From Ianthella basta (lineage: Eukaryota; Porifera; Demospongiae; Verongiida; Ianthellidae): a DNA stretch of 64,000 nt. The position numbers and the translations under genes were made by a program. This document shows positions 12,582 to 60,283 of this stretch, piece by piece. Position 1 is the stretch's first letter, and every line of letters begins with the position of its first letter. The notes under the pieces were generated by a model. It worked only from the letters and a program-made list of their open reading frames with translations, had not been told where the DNA came from and made no database searches. The stretch lies in NCBI GenBank assembly GCA_964019415.1, contig OZ025888.1, positions 4,226,536-4,290,535 of the forward strand, in the 5' to 3' direction.

Positions 12582-15500
12582 ATGAAGGTGCTGTTGGTTC
12601 TACTGGGACTCATCACAGCCAGTCTCCAAACAGGTAGGAGGGGCTTAGGAGTGATTGCTTGGGATAGAGGGAGTTGAGGAGTTATTGCGTGGTACCATCC
12701 ACATGACTCACAGGAGAGGCAGACGTTGTGGCAAAGATTAGGGCTTACAATGCTAGTGGAATACTCTACACTGAGTCAGGAAATGTAATCAGAATTGCCA
12801 GCTTCACACTGGGAACAAGAGTTCTTCTGACCTGTGATGTGACAGGACTACCTGAGGGGAGTGAAGTGACCAGGTACAAGTGGTACCACAAGTGCCCTCA
12901 AATGGGGTGTATGGTACAAGAGATACAAGAGGGAACCCCCTACTACAGAGCAGTGGCTGACACTCTATTGGTGGATGTCACTTCCCATGATTTGGGAGGA
13001 ATGTACTATTGTGATGCTGAGTATGGCAATGAACAGAGCATGAGAGGTTTCACATCAAGAATCACTGTAACAGGTTAGTGAGTTTATTAAACGTAGGTTG
13101 AAAACATATTCTGTGCTCTTCTACTGTATGTCTACATTCTGTAGCTAGCCCTGGTCCATTCCTCTTCACATCAACCTCCCTCCTCCTTGAAAATGCCCTC
13201 ATCACTGATACACAGCAGGTAACAGGAAAGGATAGACAGAAGTGGATCTTCTGCACCGGTGGGGGGAATCGAGAAAAAACACAAATTTCACACCCTGAGA
13301 CCAGTAATATTATTGCAAAGAGTCCAAGTGATAGTAACACTGTCACAAGTGAGCTGAACAGTTACACTAGAAATGGACTCTATTATTGCATCCTACAATC
13401 AACAAGGACCTACTTCTCAGTTTACTTGAAGAACTCAAGTAAGCAAGTTGATGCTGTCAACTGATCACACTCAAAAACACACTCACATTTACAGCGATAG
13501 GTTTGTATTTTTAGTCCTTACTACTGAACATATGCAAATCCATTCTTCTAGCCACTCTACCAATGCCCCATGTAAGTGTCCAGAACACTATGTGGACCTT
13601 CACATCACCAGATGGCAGCCAAGTGGAGAGATATATTGTAGAGTTTGAGTGCAGAGTGCGAAACATCACATTTGTAGAGAAGTACATGAGTGTCAGTGCT
13701 AATAGTAAAGGAACTGGACGAGTAACAAGAAATATGTCATATTTTGGAGGACTAGGCCAGCTCTACAGAGTGAAGGTGTGGGCAGTTAGTGGACACAACA
13801 TCAGTCAACAGCCAGCAGTGAAGTGTCTTACACCAGATGGGCAATGTAGAGAAGGTAGGGGAGGCATGTGAAGAAATGTGGTGTTGTGACCTACTGTGGA
13901 ATTGGTTCTGAGTATGGGTATGGTCGGCATGTGCATAATGTAATCCAGTTAGTTTGTTTGTTCACAATTCAGGCTAAAATACAGGGGAAGTTAACTTCAA
14001 ACTCGCCAATTTTACTGCTGTCAAAAATATGGAGTTACTGTACATTTCCAAATTTCAGAAGTTATGCCATGTATCTTCCACTTAAATTTTGACTGTGATT
14101 TGGTTCATTTACCTCCAACAATGGAACTTCAATTCCCTGCATTACAGCAGCTTTGTACCTTGCATGTACTCTAGCTATAGCCCAAGTTGCAGTGCACTGC
14201 TCCATGTAGCGAGTTAACCTGTTGATACAGTGCAAGTTACAATATGCACCACTAATCTAAAGTAAATAATATACTATAATATAAATAAGTAAAATAATAT
14301 AATGTCCTGGGGATTTGGCAGCCCTCATGAACATGTGCTAGGTGTGGCTTTGAAGTATGGAAGATTTTAAGACTTTTAAATGAGACAGCATTTTTAATTA
14401 GGCCTTTGTTCTACAGGCAGCACGCAAAGTGCTAATATAAATGCGCTAAGCATAACACTTATTGTATGGTGCATTTATATTGATGCATAGTGGAATTTGG
14501 TATATTAATGTAGCTGGGCTCACTGTGGTGTGAACCTTGGTGGACACGTCCAAGTGGCCCATCTCCCTAAGTTATTAGTGGGATTACTTAATTAGTCTCA
14601 AAATGGCTGAGATAAGCGAGGTGTGCTGTATAGCCCACCAACAGGGTCCCTGACACTTAGTGGACATAGTTAGATAATCCAATTATGCATGTCATTAGCA
14701 GGATTGCTTAATTATTCACAAGATAGCGGAGATGTTTTGAACAATCACATATCGGCACCAATTTGCAGGTATTTGTCACCTATGCAGGAGCAGAGCATCA
14801 CCCACATGTACACCTGCTCACAACTATCCAACCAAAGCCTACAGCTACTATAGTGTATAAAACTTCCTGTAGAATTAAAAGAGATTTAGGAATAGCCAGC
14901 AGAAGAAGCATAGAAACAAGCAACAGTAACTAACACCATGATGAACCACATTGCTGTGAAGTTTGCTCTGCATTCCTAATTCCTTGTAGCTACATGGAAC
15001 TAGCTAGCTAGACATTTGGGCCCATGTTGCTGTACAAGGAAATTAAGAACACTAGGTATGTAAGTCCTTGTACACAACTTAGGTCCGTAGGTCTCCTGTG
15101 TTGAGCACTAGGAGCGCACAAAAATTTGGTGGGAAGAAGGAAGGATATCTAGAGTATGAAAAGACAAAATGGGAGACGAGCAGCCTATGACGCTTTTCTC
15201 TTACGTGAACTCCAGGTTGCCTTTGGGTGCGCTTGTGACTGTGCAAAAAGAGATCAACAATGATTATACTGTAACACAACAGAGGTTTGAACGTAGAGTC
15301 CTCAAGAGCACTTTCTTGTTGCTGTTGAAAGAGCTTAGAGCCACTTATACTCAGTGCCACTACAAACTACAAGAACTGTAGCATGAAGATTCTGGCTAGA
15401 AGAGTTGGCTCACTTGCTGAAAGGTGGCCCATAATTCGCAAAAATTGTTCAATGCTTGGAGATACCTATAATGCTAAAAAAACATGCCAGCATTATTTAT

Positions 15501-17762
15501 CTGGGCCTAATTAAGATAGGAGACGCCATTTTGAACGGGGCACACTCCTAAATAGACATCATGAGCATGACATCTGATACCACCACATAGATATATACAC
15601 CCACCACCACCACCGCCACAGTGCAAGTTACAAGACATGCGCACATTCAATATATGTGCCAGAGCTCTGGAATAACGACCCGCACCACCATCACGCAGTG
15701 CAAGTCGGAAAAGCACACCAGTATAATTATTATGTGCTAGAACCACTAGCATGTCTTGTAACTTGCACTGTGGTGGTGGTGGTGGTGGGTGTCTATATCT
15801 ATGTGGAGCTGCAAGAAAACAAACCACCACATCAAGTGTTGTTACCCCATACTACCACCACCACCAGTGCTAGTAACAATATTATGGACACCACATGCAT
15901 TCATAGACGAAAAAGACCACCACTACCACCACATGGCGCAAGTTACAATGTAGTGAATGCATGCATTCAGTATGTGTGCCATTGCTCTAGAAAACAGACC
16001 ACTACCACCATCACCACACAGTGCAAGTTACAATAATGATATTATGGCCATCATATGCATTTCTAGACGAAAAAGACCACCACAGTGTAAGTTACAATGC
16101 ATGCATTCAGTATATGCGCCATTGTTCTAGAAAAGCACCACCGCCACCACCACACAGTGCAAGTTACAATATTCCAGCCACCGCCACCTGTACCAGCTGA
16201 ATATCTGCACCAGATGGTCATAGAAAAAGACCACCACCAGTGCAAGTTACAGTGGGCCCGGGACAGCACCATTTGCACCACCACATGTGCCAGAAAGTAA
16301 ATTCGCTCAATGGCTGACGAAAAAGACCACCAGCCCAAGTTACAGCCAGTCAGAACCTGCACCGCCGCCATTGGAGTGCACGCTGCAGCAAGCAAATGTA
16401 ACTTGCCGAAGGGCATGCAATTGAATTTCTGCCCATATCCTCAATTCAATGGCATGCCTTTACGTAGGCAAGCTTACAATCGCGTCATTAATTTTGCTTG
16501 CTAAAGTGTGCACTCTAATGGTGGCGGTGCAGGTTCTGACCGGCTGTGACTTGCCCTATAGGCCTAGTGGTCTTTTTCTTCAGCCATTGGGTGAATTTAC
16601 TTTCTGACACATGTGGTGGTGTGAATGGTGTGTGTGCTGCCCTGGGCCCACTATAACTTGCACTGCTGGTCTTTTACTATGACCAACTGGCGCAGATACT
16701 CTACTGGCACACGTGGTGGTGGCTGCAATATTGTATATAACTTGCGCTGCATGATGGTGGTGGTGGTGGTCTTTGTTCCATGCAGAGCAATGCCGCGCTT
16801 ATTAAATGCATGCATTGTAACTTGCACTGTGTTGTGATGGTGGTAAGCTATATATATATAAGCACCTGCCATTGTTCAAATGTTCAAGTTTACAGTGTTA
16901 CTGATTGCAATGATTATCATCATGTGCACTAGATGGACCAACAACAAGCACAGTGATGAATACACCAACAGCCGTAGACAGCAGAGGAAATCTAACTCCA
17001 GCAACAGTGGCTACTTCATCAGCACTGACTGACTTGTTTTCTGTGTCACCCTCCTTACCAAGTGGACCGCAAGGTTGGCACATAATGCAAATTGAGGTAT
17101 GATACAGCCGATTTCAGAATGGTTGGCCAAAAAGCAAATGGCAAATGGTGTGACGTCATAGCAAATGGCAATACTGTACAATAGGAATGATGTAATGGCA
17201 AGCAGTTAAACTAATAGTGACGTCACGCCACTTGACCATTCTGCCATTTGCCATTTTGGCCAACCATTCTGAAATTGGCTGTATCACTTTGACTAAATAA
17301 CTCAATACAAGGCATTGTATGAAAGAAAACACACTTAGTGAATAGATTTGAGGAAAGGCTATAGTGAAATCTATCCGAGGTAAGCCTTTGTAGCCATTCT
17401 GGACTTTGTGGTGAAACAAGCCTAGATCTGTCACTATACGTCTTTTCATAGGTACTTTATCAACAGTACTGCCAATATCCATTGGTGCACTAATGGTTCT
17501 TGTGGGCATAGCCACATTCACTGCTGGTGTGGTGATGTTGGTAAGAGCCAATCACAGGAGGGTACTGGACCACTCCCCCAAGCCACCTCCTCCTGGAACT
17601 GATCACTATGAGGTGGTGGATGAAGGGAAGAAGAGCACACCTCTTGGTGCAGGGGTCTACGAGGAGGTAGACAAGCAGGACACAGAGGGACACAACAAGC
17701 ACTATCAGGAGCTGGACCTGATGAAGATGGAGAGGAGCGAGTATGCATCCGTAAAAGCTTAA
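12582..17762 (+). CDS. Ig-domain transmembrane receptor 1, type A tail, intact
   Basis: Exons: 12582-12633, 12714-13073, 13145-13438, 13552-13854, 16933-17073, 17452-17762. They total 1461 nt and 486 residues with all junctions in phase 1. Order: signal peptide (about residues 1-18, MKVLLVLLGLITASLQTG); Ig-like 1 (to about 137) with LLTCDV, YKWYH and GMYYCDAEY; Ig-like 2 (to about 235) of the YFSVYLKNSS subtype; FN3-like domain (to about 336) with YRVKVWAVSG; Ser/Thr/Pro stalk (to 383); transmembrane segment about 392-414; tail with KPPPPG and Tyr436 (YEVV), Tyr453 (YEEV), Tyr468 (YQEL) and Tyr481 (SEYASV). The last fits the ITIM consensus. Expected at the cell surface, signalling through SH2 proteins; ligand unknown. 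The 3-kb fourth intron holds a large palindrome, and intron 5 holds a MITE absent from paralogues. Domain calls come from motifs only. Confidence 0.85.
15586..15803. repeat. Foldback element in intron 4 of receptor gene 1
   Basis: The left arm (about 15586-15640) and right arm (about 15748-15803) are near-perfect reverse complements. Each contains a (CCA)n or (TGG)n run next to GTGCAAGTTACAAGACATGC or its complement. The loop is about 110 bp. The same GTGCAAGTTACA motif recurs about a dozen times up to 16.85 kb. Confidence 0.8.
16060..16850. repeat. Approximately 790-bp imperfect palindrome in intron 4 of receptor gene 1
   Basis: The left arm (about 16060-16395) and right arm (about 16498-16850) align as reverse complements with roughly 80% or better identity. 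Landmarks are CCGCCGCCATTGGAGTGCAC against GTGCACTCTAATGGTGGCGG, TGGGCCCGGGACAGCACC against the CTGCCCTGGGCCCA region, and AAAGTAAATTCGCTCAATGG against CCATTGGGTGAATTTACTTT. The roughly 100-bp centre has a smaller palindrome (GGCATGCAATTGAAT against ATTCAATGGCATGCC). GCAAGTTACA motifs point right in the left arm and left in the right arm. No coding content. Confidence 0.85.
17101..17285. mobile_element. 185-bp MITE in intron 5 of receptor gene 1
   Basis: The ends are inverted repeats starting GATACAGCCGATTTCAGAAT on the left; the match runs about 27 bp with one mismatch and then continues imperfectly for about 60 bp. Both arms carry GTGACGTCA. The paralogous introns of genes 2, 5 and 7 read straight through GAGGTATGATAG at this point, so they are empty sites. 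Confidence 0.8.
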
Positions 17763-19855: not shown

Positions 19856-22114
19856 ATGAAGATGCTGTTGGTGTTACTGGGACTCATCACAGCCAGTCTC
19901 CAAACAGGTAGGAGGGGCTTAGGAGTGATTGCTAGAATGGGAAGGTTATATTTAGGGGAGTGATTGTTGGCTATATACTATACCATCCACATGACTCACA
20001 GGAGAGGCAACTGTTATGGTGAAGATCAGGGCTTACAATGCTAGTGGAAAACTCTACACTGAGTCAGGAAGAACAATCAGAATTGCCAGCTTCACACTGG
20101 GAACAAGAGTACTTCTGACCTGTGATGTGACAGGACTACCTGAGGGGAGTGAGGTGATCAGATACAAGTGGTACCACAACTGCACTCAAGTGAGGTGTGA
20201 GATTGAAGAGGGAACACCCTACCTCAGAGCAGTGGATGACACTCTATTGGTAGATGTCACTTCCCATGATTTGGGAGGGAGGTACTATTGTGATGCTGAG
20301 TATGGCAATGAACAGAGCAAGAGAGGTTTCACTACACAAATGAGTATAACAGGTTAGTGAGTTCATCAAACATAACTATGTGGGTCTGGATGACAGCATT
20401 GTTTGGACTGTTCCACTCTACATCTATGTTCTGCAGATAACCCTGGTCCATTCCTGTTTACCCCCAAATCCCTCCTCCTTGAGAACACTCTTATTACTGA
20501 CCTACAACAGATAACAGGAAATGGACAACAGAGTATAACCTGTGGAGGTGGGCATGCAGGGATATTCCGAGAGAATTCTGCAGCCCATGCAACTGGTTGG
20601 CATAGGGAGCATTTTACAACAGCATCTTCATGCTAATGGACATTATTATTGCTTGGACCACTCAATGAAGAGGATCTACTTTAATATTTTCACCAACAAC
20701 TTCAGTAAGTCCATTACACATGTAGGGGATGCAAAGGTGTACACAAGTCCTAAAAGTGAAGTATATACACCTTTCCATCCACAGCTGCCCTGCTTACACC
20801 AATCATACACACCAGTGCAGGAGAGTGGACCTTCACATCACCAGGTGGTAGCCAAGTGGAGAGATATATTGTAGAATTTGAGTGCAGAGTACAAAGCCTC
20901 ACATTTGTAGAGAAGTACATGAGTGTCAGTGCTAATAGTGAAGGAACTGGACGAGTGTCAAGAAATGTGTCATGTTTTGGAGGACTAGGCTAGCTCTACA
21001 GAGTGAAGGTGTGGGCAGTTGTTGGGCGCAACATCAGTCAACAACCAGCAGTGAAGTGTCTTACACCAGATGGGCAATGCAGAGAAGGTAGGGGAGGCAT
21101 GCAAAGAAATTTGATGTTCTGACCTGCTGCAGGAATAGTTCTGAGTATGCATAGGTGTAGTCAGCATTTGTATATTTTCCAGTTACTGCTCTAATGCATA
21201 ATATTAATTTTAGCTACTGTACGTTTGAATATTTTGAAAATCATGTCATGCATCTTCCAGTTATTGACTGATTTGGTTCACTGACCTCCAACAATGGAAT
21301 TTCAATTCCCTGTCATTATAGCAGCTTTGTACATACCTTGCATGCTACTCTAGCTTGCAGTGTACTGCTCCATGCATGTAGCAGGTTAACCTGCTGAAAG
21401 TACATACACCTGCCATTGTTCAGATGTCCAAGTTCACAGTTTTACTGATTGCAATGATTATCATCATGTGCACTAGATGGACCAACAACAAGTGCAGTGA
21501 TGATTACACCAACAACTGCAGGCAGCAGAGGAATTCCAACCTCAACAATAGTGGCTACCACATCAGCAATGACTGACCAGCCACCACTGTCACCCTCCTT
21601 ACCAAGTGGACAACAAGGTTAGTGCCTAATGAAAACTGAGGTATGATAGCATTGTGCCTTAATAACTCAATGCAAAGCATTTAATATGAAAGCAATCACA
21701 CCTATATTGGATGGATTTGGGGAAACTCTAGTGAAATCAATCCAAGGCGAGTCTTTGTAGCCATTTTGTCCCTTGTGGACTTTGTCATTACTCCCTATCA
21801 TAGGTACTTTATCAACAGTGCTGCCAGTATCCATTGGTGCACTAATGGTTCTTGTGGGCATAGCCACATTCACTGCTGGTGTGGTGATGTTGGTAAGAGC
21901 CAATCACAGGAGGGTACTGGACCACTCCCCCAAGCCACCTCCTCCTGGGACTGATCACTATGAGGTGGTGGATGAAGGGAAGAAGAGCACACCTCTTGGT
22001 GCAGGGGTCTACGAGGAGGTAGACAAGCAGGACACAGAGGGACACAACAAGCACTATCAGGAGCTGGACCTGATGAAGATGGAGGGGAGCGAGTATGCAT
22101 CCGTGAAAGCTTAA
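19856..22114 (+). pseudogene. Ig-domain receptor 2, type A tail, ectodomain broken
   Basis: Exons by homology: 19856-19907, 20002-20352, 20437-20704, 20785-21087, 21477-21617, 21804-22114. Leader, Ig-like 1 (117 codons, extra cysteines in HNCTQVRC), stalk, transmembrane segment and tail are open. The Ig-like 2 exon is 268 nt instead of a multiple of three, with a frame change between about 20545 and 20590. The FN3-like exon has TAG at 20991-20993 where paralogues have CAG. A full-length receptor cannot be made from the plain gene model. Because all exons are phase 1, a transcript skipping exons 3 and 4 would still be open. The tail is almost identical in DNA to gene 1's. Confidence 0.8.
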
Positions 22115-22560: not shown

Positions 22561-22673
<113 letters not shown>

Positions 22674-24110: not shown

Positions 24111-26413
24111 AGGACCCTAATGTTGCATTGATATGAAGAATACATGAAGTAGAATAGCATCTGGACTAGATAACTCAATATCCATATAATATCATATGTC
24201 AAACAATAGCACAAGACTTTGTCGTATGTTGCTTCCTTTTATGGGATGATGCATGTAAATGTGCATTATCAATCCCCACATTATGTATTTCACTTCTTGG
24301 TCAGCAATGGCACAAATACACTCTTCCTTTCATTCTGTTTGTTAAAACTAGATGAACAATGATACTGCTTTATGCATGGAGGAGGGAGTAGTGCTGCCAT
24401 CAAGAGAAGCATATTAAGCATTAAGAACAATGATCAAAGACAAGCACATGAAATTATACATACAGTGTCTTAACCCTTGGCAATATGCATTTACCAGGTG
24501 CATGACAGCACATGAGATTATGTTACATTCCGCTGTGAACTGACTTGTGAATATCTCGCATAGCGGCACTAATCTAATTGTGAAGCAGGTACTCAAGTGG
24601 ACAGGCAATAGCAAGCATACAATATATTCCGTATTTTAGTAGGTGTTCATGGATATGGTCCATTAGGAAGCCACTAGTAAACATGGGCAGATAACTATAA
24701 CATGTAGAATGCCAGAAGCCAACAAGTGTCCCCTAATTAGTGTCTTCAGTACCATAGTATCTATAGCAGTATCACAAGAGGACAACAGCCCGGCCAGTGT
24801 TCAACTTTACACAGTTCTGACAATGAAGGTGTTGTTGGTTCTTTTGGGACTCATCACAGCCAGTCTCCAAACAGGTAGGAAGGTTGGTTGAGGGTGACTG
24901 CCAGTGAGGGAGGGAGTAGGGGAGTGATTGCATGGTGGCCATGTACCATCCACATGACTCACAGGAGAGGCAGTTTTAGTGATGAAGATCAGAGCTTACA
25001 ATGCTAGTGGAAAACTCTACACTGAGTCAGGAAGAACAATCAGTATTGGCAGCTTCACACTAGGAACAAGAGTTCTTCTGACCTGTGATGTGACAGGACT
25101 ACCTATGGGGAGTGAGGTGGTCAGATACAAGTGGTACCACAACTGCTCTCAACAAGTGAGGTGTGAGATAGAAGAGGGAACACCCTACCTCAGAGCAGTG
25201 GCTGACACTCTATTGGTGGATGTCACTTCCCATGATTTGGGAGGGGGTACTATTGTGAAGCTGAGTATGGCAATGAACAGAGCATGAGAGGTTTCACATC
25301 AGAAATCAGTGTAACAGGTTAGTGAGTTTATTAAACATAATTACATGCAGAGGTCTGGTTATTTTCAGTGCTTTCTACTCGATGTACATCTATGATTGCA
25401 GCTAGCCCTGGTCCATTTCTCTTCACACCAAACTCCCTCCTCCTCAACCATGCCCTCATCACTGATGCACAACAGGTAACAGGAAAGGATGGGAATCAGT
25501 GGATCAACTGCACCAGTGGGGATCAAAGTGGGCCAGAAATAATCTCTGGGGACCAGAGATTTCTTGTATCAAGTGGAGGTGGTAGTAACACTGCCACAAG
25601 TGAGCTAAGCAGTTTCACTAGCAATGGACGCTATTTTTGCCACATACGAATATCAACAAGAGCCTATTTCTCAGTTTACTTGAAGAATTCAAGTAAGCAA
25701 CACACTCGCATTAACATTGGCCACAAGTTTGCATGCACTTTTACTAATGAATACTTATGTTATAATCCATTCTTCTAGCCACTCTACTGTTGCCCCATGT
25801 AAGTGTTCAGAACACTATGTGGACCTTCACATCACCAGATGGCAGCCAAGTGGAGGAATATATTGTAGAGTTTGAGTGTAGTGTACGAAACATCACATTT
25901 GTAGAGAAGTACATGAGTGTCCTTGCTAATAGTGGAGGAATTGGACGAGAAGCAAGAACTATATCCTGTTTTGGAGGACTAGGCCAGCTCTACAGAGTGA
26001 AGGTGTGAGCAGTTAGTGGACACAACATCAGTCAACAGCCAGCAGTGAGATGTCTTACACCAGATGGACAGTGTAGGGAAGGTATAGGTGGCACACAAGG
26101 ACAGGGAATACGGGGCAGGCATTGTTATCTAGTATATTTTTATGGAATGTCAATGTTGCCAGATGTAGGGATAGTGAAAAGGTATTTAAAGTCAATAAAT
26201 GTACTTGACCTGGGTTGTTGCATAGACTGTCCCCCCTCCTTGTTGACCTAGGTTGTTGCGTGGGCTCCCCCCCCCCCCCCCTTGCTCTGGAGGTTTTTTT
26301 GCCAGTTGGTTATACCATGCTTTGCAAATACACACTGCATCTGTCCTTGTTTTGTGGGATATTGTTATGGAGTGACCAATGAGTGTTGTAGAGTTGCAAG
26401 TTGCTTAATGGCA

Positions 26414-26485
26414 ACAAGTTTTTTGAGTTAAAAAACTCGTGGGGTGCCGGGGCGCCTTTGAACTCGAACTACTTGCTAGCCCCTG
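26414..26485. repeat. Small foldback repeat in receptor gene 3
   Basis: CAAGTTTTTTGAGTT on the left and GAACTCGAACTACTTG on the right are imperfect inverted repeats around a GTGGGGTGCCGGGGCGCC core. A cleaner copy lies at 37822-37878. Confidence 0.6.
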
Positions 26486-27116
26486 TCTATGTTAAATAGT
26501 GCAGTGCAATGTTGATTCCATATTGACATACGTACTTATTGTCAGCGCAATTCTCTGTCCACATCATGCTACACACAGCATTGCCTACAACATGCATGGT
26601 TGTGGCCTACAGCTGGTATATCTATCCGTGCCATTATATTCCACATCGGTGTTGCCTGGCCATTGTGGAGTAGCCGTCGCGAAGCAGCTGTCGTGGGGGC
26701 GCTGGAGCAGGGAAGCCCACTGAAGGCGGGCTTTCCTGCTAGTACATACATGATCACAAACACGAAGCCATACAAATACCTAAATCTGAAGATGCCCCAA
26801 AAATGATTATTATTGTAATGCATTATATCAAGACTGCATGATTATTTTCACAAGGTGAACCAACCACAAACACTGTGATGATTACACCAGCAACTGTAGG
26901 TAGCAGAGGAACTCCAACTCTTAATAACAGTGGCTGCCACAACAGTAATCGCTAACTGACTTGCCATCTCCTGCACCAAATGGACCACATACCTGGGAAC
27001 AATGCATTCACTGCATTGCCATTGCCAACTTAACGCCCAATTCCAATGTATAATGTGAAACAAAGCCATCTCTGCCATTGCTACCTTTCTTGGATACAGT
27101 ACAATTACTGGTACTT

Positions 27117-30012: not shown

Positions 30013-30066
30013 CTCCTTTGAAACTCCCACACCGGGCACTGACTAATCAGTGACTTATCGGAAATG

Positions 30067-43376: not shown

Positions 43377-45846
43377 ATGAAGGTGCTGTTGGTTCTACTT
43401 GAACTCATCACAGCCAGTCTCCAAACAGGTAGGAGGGGCTTAAGAGTGATTGCTAGGGATAGAGGGAGTTGAGGAGTTATTGTGTGGTACCATCCACATG
43501 ACTGACAGGAGAGGCAACTGTTATGGTGAAGATCAGGGCTTACAATGCTAGTGGAAAACTCTACACTGAGTCAGGAAATACAATCAGTATAGCCAGCTTC
43601 ACATTGGGAACAAGAGTTCTTCTGACCTGTGATGTGACAGGACTACCTGAAGGGAGTGAGGTGATCAGTTACAAGTGGTACCACATGTGCACTCAAATGG
43701 GGTGTATAGTACAAGAGATACAAGAGGGAACCCCCTACTACAGAGCAGTGGCTGACACTCTATTGGTGGATGTCACTTCCCATGATTTGGGAGGGAGGTA
43801 CTATTGTGAAGCTGAGTATGGTAATGAACAGGGCAGGAGAGGTTTAACATCAGCAATCAGTGTAACAGGTTAGTGAGTTCATCAAACATAATTATGACTG
43901 TCTAGACTGTCTGACTAGATGACAACATTGTTTGGACTGTTCCACTCTACATCTATGCTCTGCAGATAACCCTGGTCCATTTCTGTTTACCCCCACTTCC
44001 CTCCTTCTTGAGAATACTCTTATTACTGACCTACAACAGATAACAGGAAATGGACAACGGATTATAACCTGTTCAGATGAGAGAGGAGATATATTCCGAG
44101 AGAGAAGTACACTGCCATTAGATACAAAAGGAAGCATTTCAGCAGCAAATCTTCAAATAAATGGACAGTACTATTGCTGGAGTAGTCCAAACAAGAGGAT
44201 CTTCTTTAATGTGTTCACCAAGATCTTCAGTAAGTTCATAAATAGGACTGGTGCAAAGATGCATGAATACTGTGTGTCAAACAGTTTATGCATGCATGAT
44301 TTAGAATTCACATATAGTGTACATAAGAACACCTTTCCACAGCTGCCCTGCCTACACCAATCATACACACCAGTGCTGGAGAGTGGACCTTCACATCATT
44401 ACAAAGTGGAAGGAAGAGATATATTGTAGAGGTTGAGTGTAGTGTACGAAATATGACATTTGTAGAGAAGTACATGAGTGTCAGTGCTAATAGTAAAGGA
44501 ATTGGACGAGTAGCAAGAAAAATATCATGTTTTGGAGGACTAGGCCAGCTCTACAGAGTGAAGGTGTGGGCAGTTAGTGGACACAACATCAGTCAACAGC
44601 CAGCAGTGAAGTGTCTTATACCAGATGGAAAATGTAGACAAGGTAGGGGAGGCATGTGAAGAAATGTGGTGTTTTGACTTGCTGCAGGACTGGCTCTGAG
44701 TAAGGGTATGGTTGGCATTTGTATATTTCCCAGTTACTGCTCTAATGCTTAATTATGGAGTTACTATATATACTTTCTGTATTTCAAAAATTATGCTGTG
44801 CATCTTCCAGTTATTGACTGATTTGGTTCACTAACCTCTAATAATGGAATTTGAACCCCCTGTCGTTACAGCAGCTTTATACTTTGCACATACTCTAGCT
44901 ATTGCTAGTCACTGTGTACTGTTCCGTGTAGCAATTAAGTTAACATGCTGAAGTGTATACAGTGTAACATATATACACTCCTGCCATTGCTCAAAAATCC
45001 AAGTTCACAGTTATACTGATTGCAATAAAAATCATGCCATGCATCATCCATTTATTGACTGATTTGATTCACTGCCCTCCAACTGTTACAATGGAATTTG
45101 AGTTCCATGCCATTACAACAGCTTTGTATCTTGCATGCACTCTAGCTATAGCTCAAGTAACAGTGACCCCTCCATGTAGCAATTAAATTATATAACCTGC
45201 TGAAGGTATGTATTTACTCCTGCCATTGTTCAAATGTCTATGTTTACAGTGTTACTGATTGTAATGATTATCATCATGTGCACTAGATGGACCAACAACA
45301 AGCACAGTGCCACCACTGTCATCCTCCTCATCAAATGGACAACAAGGTTAGTGACTAATGAATACTGTCTGTGGTATGATAGCTTTATGCCTAAATAACT
45401 CAATATAAAGCATCATAGGAATGAAATCACACCTATTGAATAGATTTGAGGAGACTCTAGTAAAATGTGTCCAAGGTGAGTCTTTGTAGCCATTTTGCCC
45501 TTTGTGGTCTTTGTCATTACTTCCTTTCATAGGTACTTTTATCAGCGCAGTGCTTCCAATATCCATTGGTGCACTAATGGTCCTTGTGGGCATAGCCACA
45601 TTCACTGCTGGTGTGGTGATGTTGGTAAGAGCCAATCACAGGAGGGTACTGGACCACTCCCCCAAGCCACCTCCTCCTGGGACTGATCACTATGAGGTGG
45701 TGGATGAAGGGAAGAAGAGCACACCTCTTGGTGCAGGGGTCTACGAGGAGATAGACAAGCAGGACACAGAGGGACACAACAAGCACTATCAGGAGCTGGA
45801 CCTGATGAAGGTGGAGAGGAGCGAGTATGCAACCATGAAAGCGTAA
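43377..45846 (+). CDS. Ig-domain transmembrane receptor 7, type A tail, intact, short stalk
   Basis: Exons: 43377-43428, 43509-43868, 43966-44229, 44343-44642, 45287-45346, 45533-45846; 1350 nt, 449 residues, all phase 1. Ig-like 1 has HMCTQMGC and GGRYYCEAEY. Ig-like 2 is the most divergent of its subtype (ITCSDERGDIF, QYYCWSSPNKRIFF). The FN3-like exon lacks one codon and has a changed turn (SLQSGRKRY in place of SPDGSQVERY). The stalk exon is only 60 nt, with about 80 nt deleted relative to its relatives. The tail exon starts GTFISAVLPISI and ends SEYATMKA. Its 3' flank is of the second type, shared with gene 3. Confidence 0.83.
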
Positions 45847-47026: not shown

Positions 47027-49318
47027 ATGAAGGTGCTGTTGGTTCTACTGGGTCTCATCACAGCCAGTCTCCAAACAGGTAGGAGGGGCTTAAGAGTGAT
47101 TGCTAGGGATAGAGGGAGTTGAGGAGTTGTTGTGTGGTACCATCTACATGACTCACAGGAGAGGCAACTGTTATGGTGAAGATCAGGGCTTACAATGCTA
47201 GTGGAAAACTCTACACTGAGTCAGGAAATACAATCCGTATAGCCAGTCTCACACTGGGAACAAGAGTTCTTCTGACCTGTGATGTGACAGGACTACCTGA
47301 AGGGAGTGAGGTGATCAGTTACAAGTGGTACCACAACTGCCTTCAAATGGGGTGTATGGTACAAGAGATACAAGAGGGAACCCCCTACTACACAACAGTG
47401 ATTGACACTCTATTGGTGGATGTCACTTCCCATGATTTGGGAGGGAGGTACTATTGTGATGCTGAGTATGGCAATAAACAGAGCATGAGAGGTTTCACAT
47501 CAACAATCAGTGTAACAGGTTAGTGAGTTCATCAAACATAATTATGTAGGTCTCGATGACAGCATTGTTTGGACTGTTCCACTCTACATCTATGTTCTGC
47601 AGATAGCCCTGGTTCATTCCTGTTTACCCCCAACTCCCTCCTCCTTGAGAACACTCTTATTACTGACTTACAACAGATAACAGGAAATGGACAACAAAGT
47701 ATAACCTGTGGAGGTGGGCAGGTAAGGATATTCCGACAGGAATCTGTAGACCAAGTTGTTGGCAGAGGGAGGATTTCACAGCAGCAGCTTCATACAAATG
47801 GACATTATTATTGCTTGGGCCACTCAATGAAGAGGATCTACTTTAATATTTTCACCAACAACTTCAGTGAGTCCATTACACATGCAGGGAATGCAAAGGT
47901 GTATATACATGTCCTAACAGTGAAGCATATACACCTTTCCACAGCTTCCCTATCTACACCAATCATACACACCAGTGCTGGAGAGTGGACCTTCACATCA
48001 CCAGATGGCAGCCAAGTGGAGAGATATATTGTAGAGTTTGAGTGCAGTGTACGAAACATCACATTTGTAGAGAAGTACACAAATGGCAGTGCTAATGGAG
48101 GAGGAACTGGAGAGGTGGCAACAAATGAATTATGTTTTGGAGGACTAGGCCAGCTCCACAGAGTGAAGGTGTGGGCAGTTAGTGGACACAACATCAGTCG
48201 ACAGCCAGCAGTGAGATGTCTTATACCAGATGGGCAACGCAGAGAAGGTAGGGGAGGCATGAAAATAATATGATGTTCTGACTTGCTACAGGTAGTTCTG
48301 AATATGCATGGGTATGGTCAGCATCTGCATACTATACTGCCTAATGCATCGTTAATGGCGTTACTGTACGTTTCCATACTTCAAAAATCATGCCATGCAT
48401 TCCAGTTATTGACTGGTTCACTGACCTCCAACAATGGAATTGAACTTGCTGTCATTACAGCAGCTTCTCTAGCCCTAGCCCAAGTCATGGTGTACCGCTC
48501 CATGTAGCAACTAAGTTAACCTGCTGAAGGTACTATATACTCTTGCATGCCATTGTTCAGATGTCCAAGTTTACAGTTTTACTGATTGCAATGATTATCA
48601 TCATGTGCACTAGATGGACTAACTACAAGCTACAAGTGATGTTTACACTATCAACTGCAGGCAGCAGATCTAGAGGAAGTCCAATTCCAACAATAGTGGC
48701 TACCACATCAGCAATGACTGACTTGTCACCACTGTCACCCTCCTTACCAAATGGACAGCAAGGTTAGTGACTAATGAATACTGAGGTATGATATGCCTAA
48801 ACATTAAAAACAAAGCATTATAGGAATGAAATCACTCCTATTTAGATAGATTTGAAGAAACTCTAGTGAAATCAATCCAAGGTGAGTCTTTGTAGCTATT
48901 TCGGACATTTTGGCCTTTGTGGTCTTTGTCATTACTTCCTTTCATAGGTACTTTATCAACAGTGCTGCCAATATCCATTGGTGCACTAATGGTCCTTGTG
49001 GGCATAGCCACATTCACTGCTGGTGTGGTGATGTTAGTAAGAGCCAATCACAGGAGGGTACTGGACCACTCCCCCAAGCTACCTCCTCCTGGGACTGATC
49101 ACTATGAGGTGGTGGATGAAGGGAAGAAGAGCACACCTCTTGGTGCAGGGGTCTACGAGGAGGTAGACAAGCAGGACACAGATGGACACAACAAGCACTA
49201 TCAGGAGCTGGACCTGATGAAGGTGGAGAGGAGCGAGTATGCATCCATGAAAGCTGAACCAATAAAGCTACCTAATTACGTTGTATATTCTAAGAGTGCA
49301 ATAACAGTGTGTACCTAA
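47027..49318 (+). CDS. Ig-domain transmembrane receptor 8, type A tail with lost stop codon
   Basis: Exons: 47027-47078, 47159-47518, 47603-47866, 47945-48247, stalk, 48948-49318. The usual stalk acceptor (exon from 48614) gives a stop after eight codons because of a 2-base insertion. Using the CTGCAG acceptor at 48660 (stalk 48661-48762) restores the frame and gives 1452 nt, 483 residues. Ig-like 1 has HNCLQMGC; Ig-like 2 has ITCGGGQVRIF and GHYYCLGHSMKRIYF; the FN3-like domain has FECSVRNITF and a changed loop (YTNGSANGGG). The usual TAA after the type A tail is GAA, so the frame runs 20 residues further to TAA at 49316. Intron 3 (78 bp) is stop-free and in frame. Functional status is uncertain but not excluded. 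Confidence 0.7.
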
Positions 49319-51626: not shown

Positions 51627-54600
51627 ATGAAGGTGCTGTTGGTTCTACTGGGACTCATCACAGCCAGTCTCCAAACAGGTAGGAGGGGCTTAGGAGTGGT
51701 TGCTAGGGATAGAGGGAGTTGAGGAGTCATTGTGTGGTACCATCCACATGACTCACAGGAGAGGCAGCTGTTATGATGAAGATCAGGGCTTACAATGCTA
51801 GTGGTGAATTGGACATTGAGTCAATAAATACACGCCTAAGAGACAGCTTCACACTGGGAACAAGAGTTCTTCTGACCTGTGATGTGACAGGACTACCTGA
51901 GGGGAGTGAGGTGATCAGCTACAAGTGGTACCACAACTGCACTAGACCAATGTGTGAGATACAAGATGGAACACTCTACTACAGAGCAGTGGAAGACACT
52001 CTATTGGTGGATGTCACTTCCCATGATCTGGGAGGGAGGTACTATTGTGATGCTGAGTATGGCAATGAACAGAGCATGAGAGGTTTCACATCAGCAATCA
52101 GTGTAACAGGTTAGTGAGTTCATCAAACAAAATTATGTAGGTCTGGATGGCAGCATTGCTTGGACTGTTCCACTCTACATCTATGCTCTGCAGATAGCCC
52201 TGGTCTATTCCTGTTTAACCCAAACTCCCTCCTCCTTGAGAACACTCTTATTACTGACCTACAGCAGATAACAGGAAATGGACAACAGAGTATAACCTGT
52301 GGAGGTGGGCAGGTAAGGATATTCCTACAGGAATCCGGGGGCCAATTGCAAGTGGTTGGCGGAGGGAGCATTTCACAGCAGCATCTTCATACAAATGGAC
52401 ATTATTATTGCTCAGGCCACTCAATGAAGAGGATCTTCTTTAATATTTTCACCAACATCTTCAGTGAGTCCATTACACATACAGGGAATATATATATAAC
52501 ATATGTCCTAGCATATGCACCTTTCCACAGCTTCCCTGCCTACACCAATCATATACACCAGTGCTGGAGAGTGGACCTTCACATCACCAGATGGCAGCCA
52601 AGTGGAGAGATATATTGTAGAGTTTGAATGTAGTGTACGAAACATCACATTTGTAGAGAAGTACATGAGTGTCAGTGCTAATAGTGGAGGAATTGGACGA
52701 GTAGCAAGAAATGTATCGTGTTTTGGAGGACTAGGCCAGCTCTACAGAGTGAAAGTGTGGGCAGTTAATGGACACAACATCAGTCTTCACCCAGCAGTGA
52801 AGTATCTTTCAGCAGATGGACAATGCATTGAAGGTAGGATGCACACATGAACAATGTAGCGTTTCTAACCCACTGCATAGAGCAATGATTAGCATAATTA
52901 TTGTCTTTAATTACAGCATCAGCTTTTGTTTTATTTATAATGTTATACAGTAAAAGGACCAGCAATATAATCCCAGTGATGTTGATACCAACAACTGTAG
53001 GGAACAGAGTAAATCCAACTCCAACAACAGTGGCTACCACTTCATCAAAGCCTGGCCTGTCACCGTCCACATCAGGTGGATCACAAGGTTAACACAAATG
53101 TCTTGATAGTAGATCACCAATAGGCACATGGCAAATATACAGTGTTGAATATGTATGAATGTGAAGTGTGAAATGTGTATAGATTGGCAATGCAAAGCAG
53201 ATAGGGGAGACATGCAAAGAAACTGGTGTTTTGACATACTGATTGAATGGTGATGAATATAGGTATGGTTGGCATCTCCATGCATATATATAATATCCCG
53301 GTTACTGCTCCACTGCACATGAAGTTACTGTATGTTTTTATATTTCAAAAATCATGCCATGCATCCGTCCATTTATTGACTGATTTGATTCGCTGACCTC
53401 CAACAATGTAATTTAAGTTCCCTATCACTATTTATACAACAGCTTTGAAGAAGAAGTGGATGATATTAGTTATGAGGAAGTTACTGAGGCCATAGGAAAG
53501 CTAAAGAATAGGAAGGCACCAGGATTATGTGGAATTAATGCTGAAATGTTGAAAGGAGGAGGGGGTATAGTGGTTAAATGCCTTCATTTAGTAATACAGA
53601 TGATGAAGTGAGGGCTTCTCAGCTGGCTCAGGCATCAGAAAGGGTTGGTTCTCTAATACCAGCTTCACAACAAGGTTGAAAACCTTGCCGACGTTTCGAA
53701 CAGATGCTCTGGTCTTCTTCAGGGCGAAGTGTTGTGAAGCTGGTATTAGAGAATCAACCCTTTCTCATACAGATGATGTGGAAAAGGGTGAAGTGGTGGA
53801 AGATTGGAGAAGAGCTATCACTGTACCATTGCATAAGAAAGGCAGCAAATTGGCGTGTAACATTTATAGAGGGATTAGCTTGCTAAGTAGCTAAGTGTAT
53901 GCCAAAATCCTGGATATTCGGCTGAGGAGTAGAATGAAGAGCATGGTGATGGAAGTGCAAGGGGGTTCAAAAGTGGGAGGAGCTGTGTCAGTCAGATTTT
54001 TATCATCAGGTAGCTGAGTGAGAAGATTTTAGAGAAAAATAAGCAGATGACAATAGAGTGTGTTGATTTGGAAAAGGCTTACAATAAAGTATGTAGAGAG
54101 AATCTATGGAGAATGTTGGTAAGGTATAAAGTAGGTGGACAGTTACTGAGAGCTGTTCAGTCATGTTACAGGGCGAATCAAGCATGTGTAATGGTCAATG
54201 GTAAACTCTCAAGATGGTTTTCTATTTCTCAAGGTGTTCGACAAGGGTGTGTGATGTCACCTTGATTGTTTAACATAAAATTAATATAGATGGAATAACT
54301 AGGGAGGCAATGGACGAATTTGCAAGGGGAGTACAGTTGTCTAATACAAAGTTGCAGGTGTTACACTTTGCTGATGATATTGTAATGGTCACTGAGAGGA
54401 AGGAGGAGATACAGAAGAATCTTGAAGTATTAAAGACAGTTATGGATAAGCGGGGGATGAACATACATTTGGGGATAACAAAGGTGATGGTACTAAGCAG
54501 AGTAAAAGAGGGATGTAGTGTGACAATTGACCGTGAGAAGATTGAAGAGGTGCAGAGTCTAAAGTATCTTGGATCAAGTATCAGTGCTGATGGGTCAAGT

Positions 54601-55724
54601 GATGACGATATTGAACAAGGAATACAGTAGGTGCTGCAACGAGGGTGGTTGGTGCAATGTGGAAGGAAGTGTTGGAGCGGAGGGAGTTAAAGAAGGAAAC
54701 AAAACTGCAGGTCTTTATAATGCAATGGTAGTGCCTACTCTCCTCTACGGCTGCAAAATGTGGACAGTGCAGAAGAGACATGAAAGTAGGTTGCAGGCTT
54801 GTGAAATGATGTATCTGCGAAGAATAGAAGGTGTTTCAAGGCGAGATAGGGTGAGGAATGTGGACGACTGCGGAAGTAGAAGGATAACTTTAAATAGGTA
54901 GTATGGCCTTTGAGATATTATAACATTGATAGTACATATTTAATATGCTGGACAAAATTCATATGTTGAAATATATTTTAGCGGCTACCTCCTGCATAGG
55001 AGACAAAAGAAGGGTTGAATAATAATACAGTAATAGTAATACAATAGCTTTGTACCTTGCATGCACTCTAGCTATAGCTCAAGTCATGGTGTACTTCTCC
55101 ATGTAGCAATTGTTAGACTGCTGAAGGTATGTATTCACTCCTGCCATTGTTCAAATGTCCATGTTTACAGTGTTACTGATTGCAATGATAGTCATCATGT
55201 GCACTAGATGGACCAACAAAAAGCACAGTGATGCTTACACCAAAAAACGTAGGCAGCAGATCTAGAGAAAGTTCAATTCCAACAATAGTGTCTACCACAT
55301 CAGTAATGACTGATGCATTGGATAGATTTGAGGAAACTCTTTTAAATCTGTCCGAGGTGAGTCTTTGCAGCCATTTTGTCCTTTGTGGTCTTTGTCATTA
55401 CTTCCTTTCATAGGTACTTTATTAACAGCGCTGCCAATATCCATTGGTGTACTAATGGTTCTTGTGGGCATAGCCACATTCACTGCTGGTGTGGTGATGT
55501 TGGTAAGAGCCAAACACAGGAGGGTACTGGACCACTCCCCCAAGCCACCTCCTCCTGGGACTGATCACTATGAGGTGGTGGATGAAGGGAAGAAGAGCAC
55601 ACCTCTTGGTGCAGGGGTCTACGAGGAGGTAGACAAGCAGGACACAGAGGGACACAACAAGCACTATCAGGAGCTGGACCTGATGAAGGTGGAGGGGAGC
55701 GAGTATGCATCTGTGAAAGCTTAA
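51627..55724 (+). CDS. Ig-domain transmembrane receptor 9, type A tail, intron split by a LINE
   Basis: Exons: 51627-51678, 51759-52109, 52194-52463, 52531-52833, 53001-53087, 55414-55724; 1374 nt, 457 residues. Ig-like 1 is unusual before the conserved core (ELDIESINTRLRDS) and has HNCTRPMC. Ig-like 2 has ITCGGGQVRIF, a longer loop and GHYYCSGHSMKRIFF. The FN3-like domain ends AVKYLSADGQC, so one cysteine of paralogues (VKC or VRC) is a tyrosine. The stalk exon has a 2-base insertion near its normal start, like gene 8, and is open only from the ACTGTAG acceptor at 53000 (GNRVNPTPTTVATTSSKPG). Intron 5 contains the LINE at 53447-55038 and a second stalk exon copy (from 55207) that has lost its donor. 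The tail is typical, ending YASVKA. Confidence 0.72.
53605..53766. mobile_element. Penelope-like foldback insertion nested in the LINE
   Basis: It is flanked by ATACAGATGAT at 53594-53604 and 53767-53777 and interrupts the LINE reverse transcriptase frame. The ends are inverted repeats of about 32 bp (AGAAAGGGTTGGTTCTCTAA onward, one mismatch). The centre carries CCGACGTTTCGAACAGATGC and TCTTCTTCAGGGC, a signature seen near the termini of Penelope-like elements. The copy at 33936-34046 shares the ends but has lost most of the centre. Confidence 0.75.
53684..53726 (-). ncRNA. Hammerhead-ribozyme-like motif of a Penelope-like element
   Basis: On the - strand the order is CCCTGAAGA, a stem-loop GACCAGA-GCA-TCTGTTC (one mismatch), then GAAACGTCGG. 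This matches the hammerhead core CUGANGA, helix II, GAAA, with the very short helix III described for Penelope-like elements. One extra A lies between CUGAAGA and helix II, and helix II carries a mismatch, so self-cleavage is doubtful. Confidence 0.45.
55207..55350 (+). pseudogene. Second stalk exon copy in receptor gene 9, donor lost
   Basis: After a CACTAG acceptor the sequence reads as an open Thr/Ser/Pro stalk (KSTVMLTPKNVGSRSRESSI) until ACTGATGCATTGG, where a deletion joins it to intron sequence. The normal GTTAGTG donor is missing. Confidence 0.7.
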
Positions 55725-56960: not shown

Positions 56961-58579
56961 ATGAAGGTGCTGTTGGTTCTACTGGGACTCATCACAGCCA
57001 GTCTCCAAACAGGTAGGAGGGGCTTAGGAGTGGTTGCTAGGGATAGAGGGAGTTGAGAAGTTACTATGTAGTACCATCCACATGACTCACAGGAGAGGCA
57101 GCTGTTATGGTGAAGATCAGGGCTTACAATGCTAGTGGAAATCTCTCCACTGAGTCAGGACAATCAGTATAGCCAGCTTCACACTGGGAACAAGAGTTCT
57201 TCTGACCTGTGATGTGACAGGACTACCTGAGGGGAGTGAGGTGATCAGATACAAGTGGTACCACAAGTGCCCTCAAATAAGGTGTATGGTGCAAGAGATA
57301 CAAGAGGGAACCCCCTACTATAGAGTAGTGGATGACACTCTATTGGTGGATGTCACTTCCCATGATTTGGGAGGGAGGTACTTTTGTGATGCTGAGTATG
57401 ACAGTGAACGGAGCATGAGAGGTTTCACATCAGCAATCAGTGTAACAGGTTAGTGAGTTCATCAAACATTGTTATGTAGGTCTGGATGACAACATTGTTT
57501 GGACTGTTCCACTCTACATCTATGTTCTGCAGATAGCCCTGGTCCATTCCTGTTTACCCCCAACTCCCTCCTCCTTGAGAACACTCTTATTACTGACCTA
57601 CAACAGATAAGTGGCTGGCGGAGGGAGCATTTCACAACAGCATCTTCATACAAATGGACATTACTATTGCTTGGGCCACTCAATGAAGAGGATCTACTTT
57701 AATATTTTCACCAACAGCTTCAGTGAGTCCATTACACATACAGGGGATGCCAAGGTGTACACATGTCCTAAAAGTGAAGCATATACACCTTTCCACAGCT
57801 GCCTGCTTATACCAATCATACACACCAGTGCTGGAGAGTGGACCTTCACATCACCAGATGGCAGCCAAGTGAAGAGATATATTGTAGAGTTTGAGTGTAG
57901 TGTACGAAACATCACATTTGTAGAGAAGTACATGAGTGTCAGTACTAATAGTGGAGGAACTGAATGAGCAGCAACAAGTGAATCATGTTTTGGAGGACTA
58001 GGCCAGCTCTACAGAGTGAAGGTGTGGGCAGTTAGTGGACACAACATCAGTCAACAGCCAGCAATGAAGCGTCTTATACCAGATGGGCAATGCAGAGAAG
58101 GTAGGGGAGGCATGCAAAGCAATGTGGCGTTCTGACCTACTGCAGGAATGGTTCTTCCGAGTATGGGTATAGTGGGCATCTATGTATTATAATTCAATTA
58201 GTTTGTTTGTTCACAATTCAAGCAACATACAAGGGAAGCTCAAGTTGGAGGTCAAACACTCGTCATTTGACTGCGCTCATGCCTGCATATGGAGTTACTA
58301 TATGTTTTTAAGTTAAAGTCATGCTATGCATTTTCCAGTTGTTGACTGATTTGGTTCACTGACCTCCAAAAATGGAATTTGACCTCTCTGTCATTACAGC
58401 AACTTTGTACCTTGCATGCACTCTAGTTATAGCTCAAGTACATATAACAGTGGTGTCAACAAACACAGTGATGTTAGTTCAAACAACTGTAGATAGCAGA
58501 AGAACTCCATCTCCAACAACAGTGACCTCTACATTGGGAGGAAGTGGCTTGACACCCTCCACATCAGGTGGATCTCAAG

Positions 58580-59122
58580 GTTTGCACTATATGCACAAAT
58601 GGCAAAGTTTTCGCTTCCACGTTCAGGTGGCACATTTATATAACAACTTCATGCGTTAACAGCAGAAATGGTGGTAGCAACCATAGAAGCAAATTATTCT
58701 GTCTAGCACCAAAAGGTTACAGACAGGCTATTTGCTTTTTATGTGTTGCTTTGGATCCACTTCTGCAGTATAAGTCTGAGACATTAGTTTGCAAAGCACA
58801 CCTTCCCTATGCTCAGTCCGAGGCTCTTTCTCATGCATGATATAACTCTTGACAACTGAATCAGTTTTGGAGCTCAAAACACTAAGACAGTCCTCCGCAT
58901 TCTGTCAATTTGAACCCACTAAACTTAATTGCATGTGCTCGGACATTGCATCTGTAAGCCTTAGACAGGCACCAGAAATAGTAGTATATTATAAGAGAAC
59001 AGTAGGGCAAGAGCTTGCCCTTTATTCATGGGAGATTTTGGGGTATGTGATTGTTTGTTAGCCCAGAAAAGGTGGTGGAGCTATATCCAGCTTTGGTATT
59101 TTAGGAGGTTATAGAGAAACAA
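58580..59122. other. Intron 5 of receptor gene 10, left part
   Basis: Unique sequence with two short open frames (58568-58840 and 58849-59061) that resemble nothing known and have no paralogue in the array. I see no feature here. Confidence 0.5.
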
Positions 59123-59123
59123 C

Positions 59124-59413
59124 TACCATATACGCTTAAACTTTCGCGGCATTAAACTTTGGTCTAGCCAGCTAGATCATCCTAACAAGCACCCAGGAGA
59201 CAGGACGGTCTAGCTGGCTAGACTAGGTTAAACTTTCATGGTTCACAGGTTTTCATGTTTTCCACGTGTTTACTTTTGCAGTTGCAGAGTCCCAAGCATG
59301 AGAATTAAAGCCTTGTGTAAGTTTTTGCAGGGTGAAGCTTTCACAGATGCATGGTTGCTGATCCACAAAAACTGCGAAAGTTTAACCCTGCAAAAGTTAA
59401 GGCGTATACGGTA
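59124..59413. mobile_element. 290-bp MITE in receptor gene 10
   Basis: Left end TACCATATACGCTTAAACTT and right end GCGTATACGGTA are inverted repeats (one mismatch in the outer 12), with further inner matches (AAACTTTCGC against GCGAAAGTTT; CTAGCCAGCTAGA against TCTAGCTGGCTAGA). The TA at each outer end fits a TA target duplication, as in Tc1/mariner-type elements. No coding content. Confidence 0.8.
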
Positions 59414-59597
59414 TTCAAACACTACTGAAGAATACAATTAATTTACACCACTTTGAAGAATCAGTCATTTTAGTCAGTCTATTTGCATTATGTCTCAATC
59501 TCTCTGTCTGTTGCATGTACTGCTATAACGTGCATCCACTCTAGTGCACCACTCCACGTACATACCCCTAACATGGGTCTTGATCTTTTCCTTGTAG

Positions 59598-60283
59598 GTG
59601 CAGCAATTGGCACATTCATTGGAGTTGGGGTTGGTGTAGGTGTGTTGCTTCTCCTTTCAGTGTTGACCCTGGTGGGCATAATCTTGGTAGTAGTGGTGGT
59701 GAGGAGGAAGGTAACTTATAAGCAGAAAGGAGACTCAAAAATGGAAAATAATCCATACTACAAAAATGAACTAGTGTCTAATCAAGGAAATGAGATGGAA
59801 GAGAAATGTCTAGGTGCTGGTCATGACTATGTTTATGCTGATATGAATGAGGGAAAAGGCTCTATTGTTGATGGTTTTGATCCATATGAGGATGTCGATG
59901 GCAAGGTGCAGAGCAAAACTGCAAAGAAACAAGCACCAAACGAATCCTCCACTCCAGTCAGTGTGACCAACATTGGGGATCTGTATGCAGTTGTGGACAA
60001 GAGCCAGAAGAAAGGGGCAAAGAAGGAGAAAGAAACAGCCACAAACAAAGAAGATCTGTATATCATGCCAATGAAGAAGAAAGGCAAGTCATCAGAGAGA
60101 GGGGAAGGAGTGGTGGAGAGTGGAGGGGTGGAAAAGAGAGAAGAGTGTGGCAGTATGGCAGGGGTCATGTATGAGCCAAAGGCAGACAGTGAGTCTGTGC
60201 AGCAAATTGAAGGAAACAGCAAGGCTCTGAATGTTGACATGCTCTATGCAGTCGTGGATAAGAGTCGTAAAAAGAAACAGTGA
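59598..60283 (+). CDS. Type B transmembrane and cytoplasmic tail exon, second open copy
   Basis: The frame and length (686 nt) are identical to 39546-40231. The transmembrane segment is GTFIGVGVGVGVLLLLSVLT plus a Val-rich stretch. The tail has PYYKN, DYVYADM, PYEDVD, LYAVVD twice, LYIMPM and MYEPKA. Differences from the gene 6 copy are mostly substitutions, with no frame change in 228 codons, suggesting selection or recent origin. An in-frame ATG at 59573 (MGLDLFLVGAAIGTF) is conserved with gene 6 and could start a shorter protein. Confidence 0.75.

Follow-up and report, generated by a model that had tools for sequence, protein, structure and literature searches.

A large complex of tandem Ig/FN3-like receptor genes with two tyrosine-bearing tails: a candidate paired-receptor system

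The genome studied here (209 Mb in 96 contigs) carries dozens of tandem cell-surface receptor genes in a complex that is real, large and unusual, and of which the window, that is, the whole stretch of 64,000 nucleotides under analysis (C21:4226536-4290535), is a small piece. We propose, as a probable reading that we hold with some reserve, that these genes make up a paired-receptor system in which type I membrane receptors would share one pool of ectodomains and feed two phosphotyrosine outputs. For the array on the minus strand of contig C21, this proposal is well supported as an account of gene architecture and evolution, and moderately supported as an account of function.

Receptor genes in the window

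Searches with exon queries (tblastn) recovered ten receptor copies on the plus strand, in the interval 12582..60283, with tails of two types in the order A A A B A B A A A B, which confirms both the architecture and the tail order that an earlier note on this DNA had described (Table 1). The exon plan, read in genes 8 and 10, consists of a signal peptide (SP), an Ig domain (D1), an Ig-like domain (D2), an FN3-like domain (D3), a Thr-rich stalk, and a transmembrane stretch with the tail (TM+tail); the exons of both genes are bounded by phase-1 introns.

The earlier note had also seen intact, decaying and fragmentary copies side by side, and this holds: by a check of splice sites and reading frames in the SP, D1, D2, D3 and tail exons, which covered only genes with both D1 and a tail and left the missing part unread where a D1 match starts late, five of the ten genes are intact (genes 1, 5, 7, 8 and 9, all with tail A) and the remainder are broken. 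The stalk exon is sound in genes 1 and 5 and doubtful in genes 7, 8 and 9, and D1 of gene 10 passes the check as sound, yet tblastn shows it in two frames. None of the three tail-B copies in the window is intact, their ectodomains being broken, and two of the three tails are still open over 228 residues. In genes 4 and 6, D3 was looked for with the exon queries in the window and not found.

Several other features lie around and between the receptor genes. The left flank of the plus-strand array is a minus-strand gene with Myb repeats and a Myb_Cef domain (Pfam), which we take to be CDC5L-like. Two related open reading frames (ORFs) between receptor genes are WD-repeat-like by eye and read like a hitch-hiking duplicated piece of a gene, and a further ORF resembles, by eye, actinoporin-like or fungal-lectin folds; a Pfam profile search with this last ORF gave no match.

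Table 1. Features of the window; positions are counted from its first nucleotide.
Feature	Position	Strand	Description
ORF	454-945		actinoporin-like or fungal-lectin-like by eye
Myb/Myb_Cef gene	3525-9539	-	left flank of the array
Gene 1	12582..17762	+	SP, D1, D2, D3, stalk exon from 16933, tail A from 17451; intact over tested exons
Gene 2	19856..22114	+	tail A; D2 split over two frames, stop in D3; pseudogene
ORF	23117-23605		WD-repeat-like by eye
Gene 3	24823..27954	+	tail A; D1 split over two frames, stop in D3; pseudogene
Gene 3, additional partial tail A exon	27107-27178	+	
Gene 4	29093..31637	+	tail B in pieces with stops; D1 in two frames, D2 truncated; wreck
ORF	32585-32908		WD-repeat-like by eye
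Gene 5	34834..37092	+	tail A; intact; match coordinates of exons: SP 34834, D1 34965-35324, D2 35411-35677, D3 35747-36052, stalk from 36444, tail A 36781-37089
Gene 6	38835..40231	+	tail B open over 228 aa (39545-40228); D1 split over two frames, D2 truncated
Tail A remnant	41616..41777	+	decayed; 3' of gene 6 tail B
Gene 7	43377..45846	+	tail A; intact over tested exons; stalk exon barely recognisable
Gene 8	47027..49318	+	tail A; intact over tested exons; stalk exon unrecognised
Gene 9	51627..55724	+	tail A; intact over tested exons; stalk exon without its usual end
Reverse-transcriptase fragments	53607-54901		in the D3-tail intron of gene 9; RVT_1 E 6e-9 for 54274-54630
Gene 10	56961..60283	+	tail B open (59597-60280); D1 split over two frames, D2 part-deleted, stop in D3
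Tail A remnant	62253..62510	+	residues 16-101 of 103; 3' of gene 10 tail B

Extent of the complex

Genome-wide, and with fragments included, there are 55 matches to tail A, 56 to tail B and 81 to D3, most of them on C21, and 80 to D2; for D1, the 150 matches scored among 297 candidates include a distant Ig family on C8. Contig C21 carries two oppositely oriented arrays, one on the minus strand at 3.63-3.82 Mb (the minus array, of which 200 kb were read) and one on the plus strand at 4.24-4.51 Mb (the plus array, represented by the window and short search-derived pieces). Tails that cover most of their exon number 66 on this contig, 25 in the minus and 41 in the plus array, and a third array lies at C23:2.82-2.93 Mb.

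Other repeated families were met in the same searches. In the region C8:6.26-7.56 Mb there are dozens of Ig domains with 29-40% identity to D1, as well as FN3 matches and a pair of B-like tails (30% identity; E 6e-6 and 3e-5); this region is perhaps a larger, older relative of the receptor family. Calx-beta, a domain of sponge aggregation factors, forms arrays on C11, C6 and C23 (at least 150 matches), the C23 receptor array lying about 1 Mb away; no Calx-beta match falls on C21 among the 150 scored of 969 candidates, so that no linkage to the receptor arrays there was seen. A query with silicatein, taken as a sponge marker, gave 8 matches in the genome; three of these places were read, and the catalytic motif of cathepsin L is present at two of them, the third not spanning it.

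A two-gene cassette in the minus array

Along the minus array the tails follow one another as B A B A B A B A B A A B A B A B A B B A A B A A B, an alternation with 21 runs among 25 tails (p 0.0013 by shuffling; one 5'-truncated B tail scored as B, A tails with a stop included, and three tails at 3.629-3.632 Mb, past a gap of about 24 kb, left out). By contrast, the plus array, window included, shows no alternation beyond chance (19 runs among 41 tails, p 0.81, counting B tails that span from residues 1-8 to at least residue 150 of 227).

The intervals between tails of the minus array differ as well. Among tails of more than 85% coverage, and with pairs that have an intervening tail left out, decayed D1 copies turn up in the B-to-A gaps (8 of 10) and in none of the A-to-B (0/9), A-to-A (0/3) and B-to-B (0/1) gaps (Fisher 7e-4 for B-to-A against A-to-B). 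The B-to-A gaps are also shorter, nine of the ten measuring 1.5-2.8 kb and one 9.7 kb, compared with 1.4-11.6 kb for the nine A-to-B gaps (p 0.025). The runs and gap tests on this array are post hoc, the pattern having been noticed already. Because the decayed D1 occurs in B-to-A gaps only, we read the unit B, remnant, A as one that is duplicated whole: on the evidence of order and spacing, the duplicated unit of the minus array is a two-gene B-A cassette.

Two other accounts were considered and rejected. That tail-B genes are pseudogenes only is true of the window and is ruled out by the minus array, where intact genes make up 8 of 10 B and 7 of 13 A genes that have both a head and a tail. 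It is also conceivable that B and A are alternative terminal exons of one gene, and A remnants do sit behind some B tails; most full A tails of the minus array own a head, however, and separate genes are therefore preferred.

Exchange of ectodomains between the two tail types

In trees built from open, near-full domains only, the number of changes of tail label is what shuffled labels give: 8 against 8.2 for D1 (28 rows), 8 against 7.3 for D2 (24 rows), and 7 against about 7 for D3 (26 rows). For the 15 minus-array genes with three open ectodomain exons and a tail (8 B, 7 A), a single clade of B ectodomains is rejected (p-AU 4e-71), and each of the four well-supported branches of the ectodomain tree mixes A and B genes. 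Two clades would be expected if cassettes had merely been duplicated; since they are not seen, we infer that A and B genes have traded ectodomains, and these trees show the genes of the minus array, as far as sequence comparison can, to swap ectodomains while their tails stay distinct. Neighbours in this array are, moreover, more alike than in random orders (3, 9 and 35 of 10,000 permutations for D1, D2 and D3, respectively).

M26 (A) and its neighbour M27 (B) share 96% identity across 2,073 columns, including upstream DNA and introns, and their match ends just past the D3 exon. The other nine aligned A-B pairs have 82-91% identity in the main match. About 750 bp of upstream DNA are common to only three of the ten pairs (M26/M27 among them), and in the remaining seven the match starts near the SP exon or at most about 350 bp upstream of it. 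Alignments of A with B genes run through exons and introns, and 151 of 170 stop between -20 and +30 bp from the end of the D3 exon; the same stop at the D3 donor is seen in 94 of the 134 A-A pairs that aligned (of 136) and in 19 of 38 B-B pairs (of 45), so that the break largely reflects fast divergence of the intron. The stalk exons of A genes can be recognised as relatives of those of B genes. Along D1, synonymous divergence varies in patches (0.02 at alignment columns 31-47 as against 0.44-0.50 at columns 103-119), which is compatible with conversion tracts and no proof of them.

Alike ectodomains on different signalling tails are thus found in this family, and, in the minus array only, an ectodomain similarity kept by recombination. 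The view that ectodomains are common to both tail types gains statistical support from the trees, the permutations and the gap test, mainly in the minus array outside the window, and the description of the locus as a birth-and-death array of Ig/FN3-like receptors with two types of tyrosine tail is likewise upheld.

Selection on ectodomains and tails

Pairwise counts among intact genes, with intervals that ignore relatedness, gave dN/dS of 0.75 (0.67-0.83) for D1, 0.58 (0.51-0.67) for D2 (long type only), 0.72 (0.62-0.84) for D3, 0.44 (0.33-0.56) for tail A (12 intact genes in 13 rows, the additional row coming from an extra exon behind M46) and 0.57 (0.54-0.62) for tail B. Within D1, 11-column windows have pN/pS above 1 between columns 19-41, 55-89 and 115-125 and about 0.3 at 43-59 and 103-113, a noisy measure in which some synonymous counts are near zero. 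Judged by these ratios, the ectodomain evolves faster than tail A; positive selection is not claimed, and D1 dN/dS is below 1 overall.

Tails and signalling motifs

Tail A has four tyrosines, each present in 18 of 18 copies and usually set in YEVV, YEEV, YQEL and SEYAS[V/I/M]; in gene 8 (48947-49318) the usual stop is lost and 20 more residues follow, with two extra tyrosines (NYVVYSKS). In tail B both YAVV tyrosines are present in 14 of 14 copies, and they are invariant in 12 B-tail proteins (three from the genome studied here) picked from the 120 listed of 340 database relatives. The two tails are weakly similar to each other (22%, E 0.027) and may therefore be old relatives rather than independent modules. 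The 70 matches to SH2 exons in the genome mean that readers of phosphotyrosine exist in the host.

It had been suggested that the tails are paired as inhibitory and activating. Two tyrosine tails are indeed there; opposite signs did not emerge from the motifs, a strict ITIM occurring in 14 of 18 A and 4 of 14 B tails (p 0.011) and ITAM spacing in 8 of 18 and 0 of 14, respectively. If one tail is inhibitory, our guess would favour tail A on account of its ITIM (usually SEYAS[V/I/M]). Activating KIRs have no known tyrosine motifs and use a charged transmembrane residue; here, in contrast to KIR/LILR (leukocyte receptor complex), both tails bear tyrosine motifs, and inspection by eye found no charged residue of the adaptor-binding type in either transmembrane stretch.

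These data bear on the possibility of neutral tandem turnover, in which unequal crossing-over would shuffle two terminal exons among duplicated adhesion receptors without functional pairing. Many pseudogenes, the random order of A and B in the plus array, the D1 dN/dS of 0.75 and the occurrence of the D3-donor break in A-A and B-B pairs would all suit such a process, which we nevertheless think improbable in view of the alternation and cassette marker of the minus array, its numerous intact genes of both kinds, and the conservation of the tail tyrosines in this genome and in nine relatives on other contigs.

Domain folds

Structure modelling bears out part of the domain assignment. D1 is an Ig domain by profile and by fold, which places it in the immunoglobulin superfamily. 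The comparison for the whole of P0001, a database protein (from a contig of 1785 bases) that has the complete architecture in one frame, was dominated by D1, and D3 was therefore folded alone; the model suggests, less firmly, that D3 is FN3-like at the fold level. For D2 the Ig assignment is tentative: it has no Pfam match over the cut-off, its model is of low to moderate pLDDT, and two-domain fold matches reach residues 220-228 at 9-16 A rmsd. P0001 ends in a third tail type with SEYADV, for which no match was found in the genome studied here, an absence that alone says little.

The top fold matches include NCAM, CEACAM6 and LAG-3. Ig/FN3 ectodomains are common in adhesion proteins, and the presence of NCAM and CEACAM6 beside LAG-3 fits receptors for somatic or developmental adhesion, for instance in cell sorting or gamete recognition, that would have no immune role. 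To this account we give little credence, since in our judgement the size of the complex, its decay and the exchange of ectodomains would be unusual for adhesion receptors of a single function.

Relatives in other assemblies

The protein database holds 340 relatives of tail B at E <= 0.001, 120 of which were listed. Identities were computed for representatives of 90% clusters of those 120 together with P0002-P0004, so that near-identical copies are hidden, against the window, the minus array and 12 short pieces; proteins were grouped by the printed size of their contig, equal sizes being taken as one contig. Proteins of a 4666589-nt contig are 69-88% alike among themselves (8 matched) and 46-69% identical to those of the studied genome (9 matched), and probably represent a separate expansion in another species. 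A 995449-nt contig corresponds to the studied locus, 10 of its 26 proteins being exact and two having one mismatch; the remaining 14 most likely come from the plus array beyond the window.

On an 871809-nt contig none of 21 proteins is exact. One reaches 98.3% identity, in a stretch that takes in an intron; the remainder, at 71-92%, are no closer to those of the studied genome than paralogues are to one another. Either this contig represents the alternative haplotype, in which case polymorphism at the locus is extreme, or it comes from a sibling species.

Discussion

We suggest the following mechanism for a paired-receptor system. Each gene would display one kind of ectodomain (Ig, Ig-like, FN3-like, Thr-rich stalk) with one of two tyrosine-rich tails, and gene conversion or unequal recombination would exchange ectodomains between A and B genes. 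Both members of a pair would be made in the same cells and meet the same variable ligands; their tails would send opposing or different signals through SH2 proteins, and those signals would decide the response to other cells or to microbes.

As to the ligands, the earlier note had pointed to allorecognition. In that case the receptors would distinguish an animal's own tissue from that of other conspecifics, a role ascribed to Hydractinia Alr and Botryllus FF/FcoR. By analogy such a role is possible, and we consider it unlikely. The large cluster of Ig receptors, the ITIM-like tails and the gene-pair units, which recall Botryllus (PMC12065747), speak for it, as does the contrast between the 871809-nt contig, with no identical protein among 21, and the 995449-nt contig; against it stand the chance that the former derives from a sibling species, the lack of Calx-beta on C21 among the scored candidates, and the fact that nothing links the ectodomain to a conspecific ligand. 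A bolder form of the idea would see here a paired-receptor histocompatibility complex at the base of the animals, with B-A cassettes gained and lost as units, ectodomains flowing freely between ITIM-bearing and mostly ITIM-less tails, two haplotypes in one animal (the 995449- and 871809-nt contigs) almost without one-to-one alleles, and repertoires private to individuals; we regard it as doubtful.

Recognition of microbes or symbionts is a serious alternative, short of probable: conversion would keep paired receptors alike since pathogens exploit one of them, as has been argued for CEACAM. The exchange of ectodomains, their faster change relative to tail A, and the decayed copies agree with this, and the available text of PMC5112662 describes such a pattern for Xenopus ceacam genes; the same pattern would, however, fit microbes and conspecifics alike.

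The proposed paired-receptor system resembles several known ones in kind. According to the available parts of two papers, Xenopus ceacam301/303 and mammalian CEACAM1/CEACAM3 have similar Ig ectodomains on different tyrosine tails, and the similarity of their binding parts is attributed to gene conversion or recombination (PMC5112662; PMC2832619). The likeness to our family is one of kind: in both, the binding parts are alike and the tyrosine tails differ. The same available text on Xenopus has the paired genes oppositely oriented and conversion in ceacam301/303 confined to the N exon (PMC5112662), whereas here the pairs stand head to tail and D1, D2 and D3 are all mixed; the FN3-like domain also sets the present family apart from CEACAM.

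In Botryllus, the FF/FcoR receptor genes of the fuhc locus form adjacent pairs, with ITIM, hemITAM or core Yxx(I/L/V) in their tails, and haplotypes vary in their content of gene pairs, as the available text reports (PMC12065747). The likeness, by description and not by sequence comparison, is that receptor genes come as adjacent pairs and that the pair is the unit of variation. As far as that text goes, the partners of a Botryllus pair belong to different families, and fester and uncle fester have no known signalling domain (PMC12065747); here, both partners have one ectodomain type and both tails bear tyrosines. The domains differ too, with sushi in Botryllus FF/FcoR and FN3-like here. For Hydractinia, the available text of two papers gives 40 clustered Alr/Alr-like genes, some of them potential pseudogenes (PMC11876637), and ITIM/ITAM-type motifs in Alr (PMC12065747). 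Clustered membrane receptors are the common point, again by description rather than sequence comparison; unlike in the minus array, no pair cassette or two-tail alternation is described in the available parts of these papers (PMC11876637, PMC12065747).

No description of the present receptor family was found in the titles and abstract openings of the open papers searched (subscription papers fall outside this scope), or in the available parts of PMC4704026, PMC9505182 and PMC12018476. If the host is a sponge, shared-ectodomain receptors with paired tyrosine-tail outputs occur beyond vertebrates, ascidians and cnidarians, and the paired-receptor design would be either very old or reached repeatedly. 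The complex would be a second case, after Botryllus, in which a receptor gene pair is the unit of array variation, and the locus offers a concrete place to probe the recognition of self and non-self, or of microbes, in sponges.
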